Shown in pieces: positions 45,043 to 48,379 of a stretch of DNA of 64,000 bases. Position numbers and translations under genes: made by a program. Below the pieces are notes generated by a model, which worked only from the letters and a program-made list of their open reading frames with translations, ran no database searches and was not told the origin of the DNA. Numbering within the stretch: the first letter of the stretch is position 1; each line of letters begins with the position of its first letter. The stretch is from Spirochaetales bacterium (lineage in GTDB: Bacteria; Spirochaetota; Spirochaetia; Sphaerochaetales; Sphaerochaetaceae): NCBI GenBank assembly GCA_022788185.1, contig JALEVV010000027.1, positions 1-64,000 on the forward strand, read 5' to 3'.

Positions 45043-45786
45043 GTGGAAAAGTATTACTTAAAGGCTCCTCAGCTTACTCAGAAGCGTATTGAGGAGCTTT
45101 CCTGTTTTCAGGAGACGATAGGAATAAAGTTCAGTGAGCTGAGATTGCTGAATCTCGCTTTTACCCACACATCCTATGCCAATGAGGTTTTCGGTGATGT
45201 GGATAACAACGAGAGACTGGAATTTCTTGGTGACAGCATACTCGGTATGGTGACTGCCGAGTATCTCTTTGAGAATCTTCCCGATTTCAGGGAAGGGGAC
45301 TTTTCACGCATAAAGGCAACAGTGGTTTCCGAAGAGAGCCTCGCCGAGGTTGCGCTTAAGCTTCACATCTCCGATTACCTTCTCTTAAGCAAGGGTGAGG
45401 AGATGCATCAGGGAAGGTTCAAGAAGGCAATTCTTGCAGACTGCATGGAAGCGGTCATAGCCGCCATCTACCTGGATAAGGGCTTTGAAACTGCCAAGGC
45501 ATACGTACTTTCCTTCATAGCCGGACAGGTCGAGAAGGTCCTGGCGGGAAGGAACTCCAATAAGGATTACAAAAGCCTTCTTCAGGTTTACTTTCAGAAA
45601 AAGAAGAACAAGGTTCCCGAGTACTTCCTCGATCATGTGGAGGGCCCGAACCATGAACAGAAGTTCTTCGTCAAGGTCTTTCTCGGACAGAAGTGCTACG
45701 GTATGGCTGAAGGGACCAACAAGAAAAGTGCAGAGCAGAATGCAGCCCGGCTGGCACTTAAGGAGCTGGGATTAATCGAAGAATGA
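45043..45786 (+). CDS. rnc: Ribonuclease III
   Basis: A 247-residue double-strand RNA endonuclease that processes rRNA and regulatory RNAs. GTG start. The signature NERLEFLGDSILGMV lies near residues 56-70 with its metal-binding acidic residues, and a second acidic cluster is in ADCMEAVIAAIYLDKG. The C-terminal dsRNA-binding domain begins near 165 (DYKSLLQVYFQKKKN) and ends GTNKKSAEQNAARLALKELG. Length and order are standard. Confidence 0.95.
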   Translation: MEKYYLKAPQLTQKRIEELSCFQETIGIKFSELRLLNLAFTHTSYANEVFGDVDNNERLEFLGDSILGMVTAEYLFENLPDFREGDFSRIKATVVSEESLAEVALKLHISDYLLLSKGEEMHQGRFKKAILADCMEAVIAAIYLDKGFETAKAYVLSFIAGQVEKVLAGRNSNKDYKSLLQVYFQKKKNKVPEYFLDHVEGPNHEQKFFVKVFLGQKCYGMAEGTNKKSAEQNAARLALKELGLIEE

Positions 45787-45811
45787 CCTCCTGTACGGAG
45801 GCTTCTTTTTT
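45787..45811 (+). terminator. Intrinsic terminator after rnc
   Basis: CCTCC (45787-45791), loop TGTAC, GGAGG (45797-45801), then CTTCTTTTTT. It begins immediately behind the rnc stop codon. Confidence 0.8.
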
Positions 45812-45827
45812 CCCATGCAGGGAATTC

Positions 45828-45854
45828 CGACACTTTTCCGTGTATTATATATAG
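45828..45854 (+). promoter_or_regulatory. Candidate promoter of the Rpn nuclease gene
   Basis: Contains TTTTCCGTGTATTAT (45834-45848), identical to the element before the methyltransferase gene at 13410. With a 17-base spacer, CCGACA and TATAGA would be the -35 and -10. Confidence 0.4.
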
Positions 45855-45884
45855 AGGGTAGTGAATCCCTCTGAAGGATAGTAC

Positions 45885-46790
45885 ATGGAATACCTGGAAA
45901 TCATAAAGGGCAGTGCCGACGACAGGTTGGATGAGACATGCAAGACCATCCTGAGGATTCCGGAACTGACGGCAAGGACACTTGTCATCGCGCTACCTCA
46001 TTTCCGCAGCATCCCGCTTGCCGGGATAATATCATCACTTCCCGTTGAGGGAGATCTGGTGGTTCTGGGAGATGGAGACAAACGGAAGGTGCGTATGGAT
46101 ACCTATTACCGCTGCTTCCTTCCCGACGGAAGACAAATACGCATCAACACTGAAGTTCAGGGTAATGTGGGGCGGGACAACACACTCGTGAACAGAGGGC
46201 TTGCAACCATGTCCCTTATTCTGATCGATGAGTGCAGAAAGCACATCAGAAATCAGGAGTATGGGAAGCTGACTGACATGTGCTCGATCTGGATATGTCC
46301 TAATGCTGCCGAAGACAGAATAGAGCATGCCGTGATGGCGCCTTCGGACGGTAAGTCGTATTTCGCTGACGGATCCTATGACCTGATGCGGCTCTGCTTC
46401 ATTTTCATGAGTAAGGACGGAAGCGATGAGACCCTGGACAGATCAATAGCAGGGGGAGACAGGGTACTTGAAGAATCATTGTCTTGCCTTTGGGCAGTTT
46501 TTTCGACACAATATGATCAGGAAGAGAAGAAAAGAATTCTCAGGGACCGGTATGGTCTGTCACATTTTGCAGTAGAGGAGAGCATTAAGATGTGTACTTA
46601 TTCACAGATGATCCGCAGCAGCAGTTTTCAGGAAGGTGAAGTACTTGGTGAAAAACGCGGCGTACGTAAATCCTTTATCGAATTATACCTTGATGGAGAT
46701 TACCCTCTGGAAAAGGCGGCGGCAAAGTGTTCTCTTCCTGTTTCTGAGTTTCTAATACTTGTCGATAAATATAAGAACGGGCAGTTCTGA
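45885..46790 (+). CDS. Rpn-family PD-(D/E)XK nuclease (transposase_31-like)
   Basis: A 301-residue protein of the Rpn/PDDEXK group, DNases first seen as recombination-promoting or putative transposases and later linked to toxin-type phage defence. The nuclease core is in residues 45-95: MDTYYRCFLPDGRQIRINTE followed by VQGN, where the E-x-Q replaces E-x-K as usual in this family. The family's mobile-like spread fits its solitary position between core genes. An internal in-frame start for the C-terminal 66 residues and a downstream copy of that segment are listed separately. Confidence 0.8.
   Translation: MEYLEIIKGSADDRLDETCKTILRIPELTARTLVIALPHFRSIPLAGIISSLPVEGDLVVLGDGDKRKVRMDTYYRCFLPDGRQIRINTEVQGNVGRDNTLVNRGLATMSLILIDECRKHIRNQEYGKLTDMCSIWICPNAAEDRIEHAVMAPSDGKSYFADGSYDLMRLCFIFMSKDGSDETLDRSIAGGDRVLEESLSCLWAVFSTQYDQEEKKRILRDRYGLSHFAVEESIKMCTYSQMIRSSSFQEGEVLGEKRGVRKSFIELYLDGDYPLEKAAAKCSLPVSEFLILVDKYKNGQF
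46590..46790 (+). CDS. Probable internal small product of the Rpn gene (RpnS-like)
   Basis: Inside the nuclease gene and in its frame, an ATG at 46590 is preceded by GAGGAG at 46575-46580, a strong ribosome site with nine bases spacing. It would yield a 66-residue C-terminal product (MCTYSQMIRSSSFQEGE onwards). E. coli Rpn genes are known to make such an intragenic small protein that blocks the full-length nuclease. The free-standing copy downstream starts at exactly the same Met, which supports this start being real. Confidence 0.55.
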   Translation: MCTYSQMIRSSSFQEGEVLGEKRGVRKSFIELYLDGDYPLEKAAAKCSLPVSEFLILVDKYKNGQF

Positions 46791-46820
46791 GATTATATGG
46801 TTGAAGGTAAGGACTGAGCA

Positions 46821-47009
46821 ATGTGTACTTATTCACAGATGATCCGTAGCAGCAGTTTTCAGGAAGGTGAAGTATGTGGCGTACGTAAAGCCGCTATCGA
46901 AGTGTACCTTGATGGAGATGTCACGTTGGAAAAGGCGGCGGCAAAGTGTTCTCTTCCTGTTTCTGAGTTTCTCATGCTTGTTGATATATACAGGAAGGGG
47001 CTGTTCTGA
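46821..47009 (+). CDS. Free-standing copy of the Rpn C-terminal segment
   Basis: A 62-residue ORF that repeats the last 66 residues of the preceding nuclease with a four-residue deletion (GEVLGEKRGVRK becomes GEVCGVRK) and about a dozen substitutions. The first 17 residues and the AAAKCSLPVSEFL block are unchanged. No nuclease domain precedes it. It may be a decayed second gene or a separate antitoxin-like product. The upstream GGTAAGGAC is only a modest ribosome site. Confidence 0.55.
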   Translation: MCTYSQMIRSSSFQEGEVCGVRKAAIEVYLDGDVTLEKAAAKCSLPVSEFLMLVDIYRKGLF

Positions 47010-47012
47010 GCC

Positions 47013-47030
47013 TGCCTGATCATTCAGGCA
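47013..47030. terminator. Bidirectional hairpin between Rpn copy and cca
   Basis: TGCCTGA (47013-47019) pairs with TCAGGCA (47024-47030) around TCAT. It overlaps the stop codon of the minus-strand cca gene and separates converging units. No strong T tract. Confidence 0.5.
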
Positions 47031-48379
47031 AGCTTAGATGCATGGATTCTGGCAAGGTTAATGAGTTTATCCCTTTCATTGAGGGATGGATCCTCAATTA
47101 CTTCGTCCAGAAGGTAATTGAGTACCTGACCGAGCTTTTTGCCTTCCGCAATTTTTTCGTTTTTAAGGTCATTCCCGTTCACGGCAAGATCCCGGAGGGT
47201 CATGGCACTCTGTTTTTCAACTTCAGTCTCTATCCTTTGTTCAAAGGAGTTCAGGAGGGTGAAGTCCGCTTTCGGATCCATTGAAAGGGCATCTGAGCGC
47301 CGCACGTCGAAAAGCTCGGGAATGTCGTTAAGTCCCACCCTGATGATGAAGCGCCTGACTGCGCTGTCAGACCACTCGGGAGTGTAGGCGAACATGTGGT
47401 TTCTAACCAGTGAACACGTCTTTCTTATCTCCTCAGTCGAGCACTTCAGTGTCTTCAGTGTCCTTTCGGCAATTTTTTCAGAGATGTTCTCATGACCGTA
47501 GAAGGTATATCCTGACTCCCTGTCCCCGCGTCTTGCCTCAACCTTTCCAAGATCATGGAAGAGGACGGCCAGCTTCACGGAGAGGGGGTATCCGAGACGC
47601 TTTGCTTCCTCGAGAGCCTTAAGGGTATGGTGGTATACATCATCGCTGTGAAGGCCTAGCTGCTCAAAGCCGTATGCGGCCTCCAGTTCGGGAAGTATGT
47701 ATTTAAGAAGACCGGAGGTTCTTAAAAGCTCCAGCCCCCTTGCAGGCTCAGGACTGTCGATCAGGCGGAAGAACTCCTCCCTGATGCGCTCTTTTGATAT
47801 GAGTGTGATTCTCTCAGCATCCTTCTTTACTGCCTCAAAGGTTTTTTCCTCGATTTCAAAGCCGAGCTTTGCGGCAAAGCGCACTGCACGCAGCATCCTC
47901 AGCGCATCCTCGTCGAAGCGGTCCTTCGGCTCTCCGATCGCCCTTATCGTCTTATTCTTCAGGTCATCAAGACCTCCGTGGAGGTCTATGATGGTGCCGT
48001 CTTCGGTGGAGGCGGCAAATGCGTTTACCGTGAAGTCCCGTCTTGAAAGGTCCTCCGCGAGATCGCGGACGAAGGAGACACTGTCAGGGTGTCTTCCGTC
48101 GCTGTAGGCTCCTTCAGTCCTGAAGGTCGTTATCTCATAGGCTTCCTTTCTGTAGAGCACGGTCACGGTGCCGTGCTTTATCCCCGTGGGGATGGTGGAG
48201 GAGGGGAAGAGGGCTGTGACTTCCTCCGGAGTCGCATCGGTCGTGAAGTCATAGTCATGGTTCTCCCTGCCTAACAGGAAGTCCCTGACGGCGCCTCCCA
48301 CTATGTAGAGCTTATGACCGGAATCGGAGAATTTCCTTCCAAGGCTTAAGATGTCTCTGGTGAACACATATCTTTTCAT
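47024..48379 (-). CDS. cca: CCA-adding tRNA nucleotidyltransferase with HD domain
   Basis: A 451-residue class II nucleotidyltransferase that completes or repairs tRNA 3' CCA ends. The active site is YIVGGAVRDFLLGRENHDYD, with the paired metal Asp in DYDFTTDA. RRDFTVNAFA and the RFDEDALRMLRAVRFAAKLGF head domain follow. An HD phosphohydrolase domain is visible as LAVLFHDLGKVEAR, which trims 2',3'-cyclic ends in related enzymes. It diverges from ileS. Confidence 0.93.
   Translation of the reverse strand: MKRYVFTRDILSLGRKFSDSGHKLYIVGGAVRDFLLGRENHDYDFTTDATPEEVTALFPSSTIPTGIKHGTVTVLYRKEAYEITTFRTEGAYSDGRHPDSVSFVRDLAEDLSRRDFTVNAFAASTEDGTIIDLHGGLDDLKNKTIRAIGEPKDRFDEDALRMLRAVRFAAKLGFEIEEKTFEAVKKDAERITLISKERIREEFFRLIDSPEPARGLELLRTSGLLKYILPELEAAYGFEQLGLHSDDVYHHTLKALEEAKRLGYPLSVKLAVLFHDLGKVEARRGDRESGYTFYGHENISEKIAERTLKTLKCSTEEIRKTCSLVRNHMFAYTPEWSDSAVRRFIIRVGLNDIPELFDVRRSDALSMDPKADFTLLNSFEQRIETEVEKQSAMTLRDLAVNGNDLKNEKIAEGKKLGQVLNYLLDEVIEDPSLNERDKLINLARIHASKLA

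Follow-up and report, generated by a model that had tools for sequence, protein, structure and literature searches.

In the 64,000-nucleotide stretch of DNA from a Spirochaetales bacterium that was analysed (the window; assembly GCA_022788185.1, contig JALEVV010000027.1, positions 1 to 64,000), a gene coding for an Rpn-type nuclease is followed on the same strand by a separate open reading frame (ORF) that, as judged from its sequence, is derived from that rpn gene. This free copy is one four-residue repeat shorter than the C-terminal segment to which it corresponds. The shortness was absent from a preliminary description of the locus and turns out to be the point that matters most. Taken as a whole, the locus may be explained best by a non-cognate RpnS that is kept as a small protein of its own and as a possible donor for the C-terminus of the toxin, a reading for which belief and doubt are about evenly balanced.

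The background to this reading comes from E. coli, whose rpn genes, according to Zhong et al. 2023 (PMC10327210), possess an internal start. A small protein, RpnS, is made there from the C-terminal part alone and blocks its own full-length RpnL. Helix 1 of RpnS holds four-residue repeats, the number of which is variable, and the addition of one repeat to the RpnC small protein abolished neutralisation, this repeat rule having been tested for RpnC only. In the same paper, RpnAS (PDB 7TH0) is presented as a three-helix bundle forming a dimer through helix 1, and separate downstream rpnS genes are reported, namely ypaA behind rpnE and a copy behind rpnC, which are made at least in the case of rpnE (YpaA in E. 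coli) and probably arose independently at each locus; rpnE/ypaA fusions are mentioned as well. Because E. coli is already known to have both forms together (at rpnE-ypaA and rpnC), the window does not represent a newly seen intermediate. Its layout of an intragenic plus a free copy is of an already known kind, found here in an uncultured spirochaete. An intragenic RpnS, as predicted for the window, is also made in E. coli from an rpn gene of Clostridioides difficile, which indicates that the intragenic layout is not limited to Proteobacteria; for that gene, in contrast to the window, the accessible parts of the paper (PMC10327210) describe no free copy. In the literature searched, no paper later than 2023 on free RpnS copies was found.

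Composition of the rpn locus

The rpn gene and its free copy are flanked by rnc (45043-45786) and a convergent pcnB-like gene (47024-48379). The features of the locus, with their coordinates in the window, are as follows.

45787..45801, plus strand: terminator-like hairpin followed by a T run, 3' of rnc, parting rnc from rpn; found by a pattern scan only, which gave 2 such hits versus 1.2 expected
45885..46790, plus strand: RpnL-like full-length nuclease gene (301 aa), based on the ORF, BLAST and alignment with Rpn relatives that pass PF12784
45930..45932, plus strand: Asp16, aligned with RpnA Asp11, which is required for activity (alignment; mutant data of Kingston 2017, PMC5350276)
46098..46100, plus strand: Asp72, invariant, aligned with the catalytic Asp63 of RpnA (alignments)
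46152..46160, plus strand: Glu90-x-Gln92, an E-x-Q motif equivalent to Glu82/Gln84 of RpnA (alignment, with the equivalence read by eye, as the aligner was offset by one column there)
46575..46580, plus strand: GAGGAG, Shine-Dalgarno-like, 9 nt 5' of ATG 46590
46590..46790, plus strand: predicted intragenic RpnS (66 aa), with the internal ATG at 46590 corresponding to Met236 and positioned like the internal starts of Rpn proteins from E. coli
46644..46655, plus strand: 12 nt coding for about LGEK, a unit of the intragenic copy that has no counterpart in the free copy; its placement is ambiguous by a few bases
46809..46813, plus strand: AAGGA, Shine-Dalgarno-like, 7 nt 5' of ATG 46821
46821..47009, plus strand: free-standing RpnS paralogue (62 aa), a direct copy of 46590-46790 minus one four-residue unit

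The product of 45885-46790 is an Rpn-type PD-(D/E)XK nuclease with a predicted intact catalytic set, in line with the identity first proposed for it. Indeed, D16, D72, E90 and Q92 match D11, D63, E82 and Q84 of RpnA, residues whose mutation changes or abolishes activity (Kingston 2017, PMC5350276). Rpn relatives from genomes of the same family displayed 24-30% identity over the alignment to the 301-aa protein, with best BLAST E values of 1e-11 to 1e-12. Three relatives (L005, L010 and L013) pass PF12784 (PD-(D/E)XK nuclease family transposase) and could be aligned end to end with the window protein at 26-28% identity. As a single sequence, the window nuclease gave no match in Pfam or NCBIfam, and profile searches of PDB sequences, the RpnAS structure 7TH0 included, retrieved no relative. 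In addition, both window copies display the variation in four-residue repeats in helix 1 of the C-terminal domain that is a trait of Rpn proteins. A weak match of the free copy to UPF0175 (0.023, below the cut-off) was dismissed.

The preliminary description had placed the locus at 45885-47009, a GAGGAG 9 nt before the ATG at 46590 and a copy ORF at 46821, and every one of these coordinates is right. The internal start, with its predicted ribosome-binding site, lies at the boundary of the C-terminal domain and aligns with its counterpart in E. coli Rpn, and a start with a Shine-Dalgarno sequence was found at sites aligned with 46590 in rpn relatives too. Duplex energies with the anti-Shine-Dalgarno sequence were -8.4 kcal/mol for 46590, -5.3 kcal/mol for 46821 and -4.8 kcal/mol for the full-length start at 45885.

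The second ORF had been called a diverged direct copy of everything from the internal methionine onward, which is borne out by the comparison of both sequences. The free copy and the segment from Met236 to the stop are identical at 168 of 189 nt, apart from one 12-nt gap (four codons, LGEK or GEKR), and have the same methionine at the start and the same stop at the end. At the protein level, 77% identity over 66 aa was found (E of about 1e-31 versus the downstream region; 2.8e-24 in a whole-genome search), which is far above chance, and the only close relative of the free copy in its own genome is the rpn gene directly 5' of it. The first 18 residues are identical, with a single base change in the first 54 nt. 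The DNA homology starts exactly at the ATG, the 60 nt 5' of the two starts (46590 and 46821) displaying no relatedness (15-23 of 60 positions identical at any offset). The 21 substitutions between the window copies correspond to a dN/dS of about 0.5-0.7, a value from which, as it comes from a single pair, constraint is unproven. These differences are clustered (P of about 0.04 for the longest identical run and 0.006 for the three longest runs), which hints at gene conversion, a signal that is too weak on one pair.

The E. coli rpnE-ypaA locus resembles the window in that an rpn gene with an internal start is followed within 35 nt on its 3' side by a free copy on the same strand with the same methionine, and in that free and intragenic copies differ by four-residue units (one extra KLEG in strain K-12). 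However, RpnE of K-12 is annotated as inactive, whereas the catalytic residues are retained in the window protein; the Pfam family is PF04754 for E. coli Rpn and PF12784 for the relatives of the window protein; and the free copy is the longer one in K-12 but the shorter one in the window. Similarly, the rpnC locus combines a full-length rpn with a free C-terminal paralogue of different repeat number (in 7/7 strains), although its downstream ORF has a diverged N-terminus of its own (MEIKTRRETRQ...) and looks old, whereas the window copy keeps the same methionine.

Occurrence, repeat register and tails of free copies

The survey of related genomes suggested in the preliminary description, for rpn genes followed by C-terminal copies, yielded such copies in many genomes. 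The sample consisted of 245 non-redundant rpn ORFs, each followed by 500 nt of sequence or more, from the window's own genome (G000) and its relatives, GTDB contigs, 15 genomes reached via these contigs, E. coli, and a search for PF12784 across Spirochaetota; the taxa sampled were Spirochaetota, clostridia, E. coli and one archaeal MAG. When the last 100 residues of each rpn were compared with its own downstream 1.5 kb, standalone C-terminal copies were retrieved 3' of 38 of the 245 ORFs (32 when the E. coli rpnC strain set is left out), a frequency that is not an unbiased estimate, since about 13 of these 32 loci came from two related rabbit-gut MAGs (G144 and G147); moreover, the sampling was not independent, and relatives of the window protein had served as seeds of the search. 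Five more loci contained a second full-length rpn only. In total, 54 free copies were counted, one to four in tandem, all on the same strand as their rpn and none on the opposite strand. The same test applied upstream was positive in 4/128 cases, some of them short or distant, so that the downstream frequency was about fivefold higher. Among IMG/VR viral contigs, one weak relative only was found.

In the genome to which the window belongs, free copies are present at further rpn loci, namely two at L020 (G000:C15) and one at L019 (G000:C51). Arrays of three to four free copies behind one rpn occur at L145, L143 and L053, the longest (four) being that of L145, in which stops interrupt some of the copies. 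An rpn with two free copies (L081) comes from a MAG assigned to the archaeal Methanomethylophilaceae, for which a binning error is possible.

After trimming, 31 of the 45 intact copies differed in length from the adjoining RpnL C-terminus, and all 31 differences were multiples of four residues. The repeat number was equal to that of the neighbour in 14/45 copies, with at least one matched copy at 11 of 31 loci. In the two identity bands that contained nearly all copies, the mismatch amounted to 68-73%, compared with 66-78% when separate rpn genes of the same similarity were paired; as these rates are about the same, nothing seems to hold a copy in register with its neighbour. The repeat number also differed at 8/8 sampled rpnE-ypaA loci and 7/7 rpnC loci of E. 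coli, which are not counted as independent, since the sampled strains are related. If the RpnC result is general, free copies would mostly be non-cognate, the window copy, one unit short, included. Indeed, the lack of one four-residue unit, combined with the one-repeat assay of RpnC, makes the window copy unlikely to be the cognate antitoxin of the neighbouring RpnL; its probable status is that of a non-cognate paralogue, acting as a donor of C-termini rather than as a back-up antitoxin.

Besides repeat number, tails may differ. In E. coli, RpnE ends in EREIVLATTQLTDADIPN and YpaA in DRDQVLAATQLSEADLAANNH, and the rpnE locus occurs in two states, either as a pair with ypaA (L021 and L325-L331) or as a single gene with the YpaA tail (L321-L324). 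In all four single-gene strains sampled (NCTC9008, E. coli B, 25DN and O157:H7 F8798), RpnE carries the YpaA tail. This fused rpnE is the footprint expected of a recombination between the copies, which would have deleted the middle and given the toxin a new C-terminus. At four clostridial loci (L153, L178, L182 and L185), the free copies have the first part in common with RpnL and end in another tail type; the tail types at these loci are KMKAFGLSDDDIKKI versus LMAADGVPEEIIRKYM. A general gradient of copy-parent identity, high at the 5' end and low at the 3' end, as a possible trace of cassette swapping, was not found across the survey (P = 0.24).

The same data bear on the rather unlikely explanation that the ORF at 46821 supplies the cognate antitoxin as a back-up or for dosage, in a locus moving toward a classic two-gene operon. 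The shared start codon, the own Shine-Dalgarno sequence and intact ORF of the window copy, the identity of the first 18 residues and the production of YpaA in E. coli would all fit such a role. However, a four-residue unit is missing, whereas a change of one unit abolished neutralisation in the case of RpnC, and in the strains sampled the resolved rpnE of E. coli is one fused gene, in which the intragenic layout is restored and the toxin C-terminus is not lost. In addition, agreement in repeat number is no commoner between a copy and its neighbour than among separate rpn genes, an observation that speaks against any general trend to two-gene pairs. The step from intragenic to classic two-gene organisation that had been envisaged for this locus is not the preferred reading. 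Unlike in a classic type II operon, the toxin gene retains the whole antitoxin segment and the internal start, and the repeat numbers differ. Of the proposal that the locus carries both an intragenic and a free antitoxin copy, the plausible internal start and a probable translation of the free copy stand, whereas the free copy is unlikely to be cognate.

Coding status of the copies and a possible role as C-terminal donors

As a class, the free copies look like genes under purifying selection and resemble expressed small proteins. Outside the E. coli rpnC strain set, 45/48 copies were open across the match and three contained stops, with about 20 of 43 modelled copies expected to be open in a simple neutral simulation. 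Within arrays, the copy-versus-copy dN/dS, which excludes constraint on RpnL, was 0.42 when pooled, ranging from 0.04 to above 1. A start preceded by a Shine-Dalgarno sequence was present in 44/49 copies (at -4 kcal/mol or lower, an energy that is reached at 31% of random positions), and 23/49 copies start at a site aligned with the intragenic start and its Shine-Dalgarno sequence. The coding constraint, like the recurrence of the copies, extends over many genomes.

A functionless copy, left as a chance by-product of a partial tandem duplication and heading to decay or collapse, is unlikely in view of this pooled dN/dS, the excess of open frames, the starts preceded by Shine-Dalgarno sequences, the roughly fivefold excess downstream over upstream and the recurrence across phyla, although three surveyed copies contain stops, dN/dS is near 1 in a few array copies (L053, L119 and L093) and the window pair by itself leaves constraint unproven. 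It is highly improbable that the free copy is a mixed-dimer regulator that pairs with the intragenic RpnS, thereby titrating the antitoxin and tuning toxin release; RpnAS dimerises through helix 1 and copies are often the same at the start of helix 1 while differing in repeat number, but a mismatch that blocks pairing of RpnS with RpnL is expected to weaken pairing between two RpnS forms also.

With the free copy as a non-cognate RpnS and possible donor, the locus would be an Rpn toxin-antitoxin unit, in which RpnL is a putative PD-(D/E)XK DNA nuclease. Its C-terminal helical segment would also be made alone, from 46590, as RpnS, which, by extension from E. coli, may neutralise RpnL by pairing through helix 1. 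The ORF at 46821 would then be a partial tandem duplicate of the RpnS segment that turned into an independent gene. With a helix-1 region that is one four-residue unit shorter, its product would most likely pair poorly with RpnL, and it may be retained as an RpnS of other specificity that guards against, or pairs with, Rpn alleles of different repeat number. At the same time, the free copy could be a ready donor, whose recombination into the 3' end of rpnL would alter the toxin and the intragenic antitoxin together. A wider version, proposed only tentatively, is that alternative antitoxin modules, up to four consecutive ones, are stored 3' of the toxin gene at Rpn loci. These modules, varied in repeat number and sometimes in tail, would be functional, non-cognate and recombined into the toxin gene, allowing a change of specificity in one step during which a matching antitoxin is never absent.

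Orphan cdiA-CT/cdiI modules, reportedly treated by Poole et al. in 2011, are regarded as likely donors and as extra immunity. These modules and the C-terminal modules of Rhs proteins resemble the Rpn loci in that a variable C-terminal module is copied 3' of the main gene; they are not homologous, however, and toxin tip and immunity are separate genes there, whereas in Rpn the copied segment is the antitoxin itself. Published work explains the co-evolution of the toxin and its internal antitoxin, but not why so many loci retain free copies. As the copies are coding, constrained and mostly out of register, the choice between back-up, immunity to other alleles and donor becomes testable, and rpnE of E. 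coli, with thousands of genomes that contain either the pair or the fused form, is a ready system for this question; 80% or more of the rpnE-ypaA query was covered in 4,750 genomes, with fused forms counted in.

The gap between rnc and pcnB

The gap between rnc and pcnB is a recurrent site within one genus, filled with different rpn genes. No full-length match to the window rpn was found in 15 other genomes of the genus. In the sister genome G001, the gap contains a different rpn in convergent orientation. In the sister genome G006 (contig C88, JAQYFM010000088), a different rpn, of the G001 type, lies behind rnc and is accompanied by its own free copy, which is longer by one four-residue unit and ends in a different tail. 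In G004, the gap is empty, with rnc directly next to pcnB. The slot spans 45787-47023 in the window, 510-1497 in L333, 2242-3264 in L334 and 611-637 in L336. Elsewhere in the window's own genome, two tandem N-truncated rpn-like ORFs (L003, 1120-2364 of G000:C90) have a common body and different C-terminal tails.
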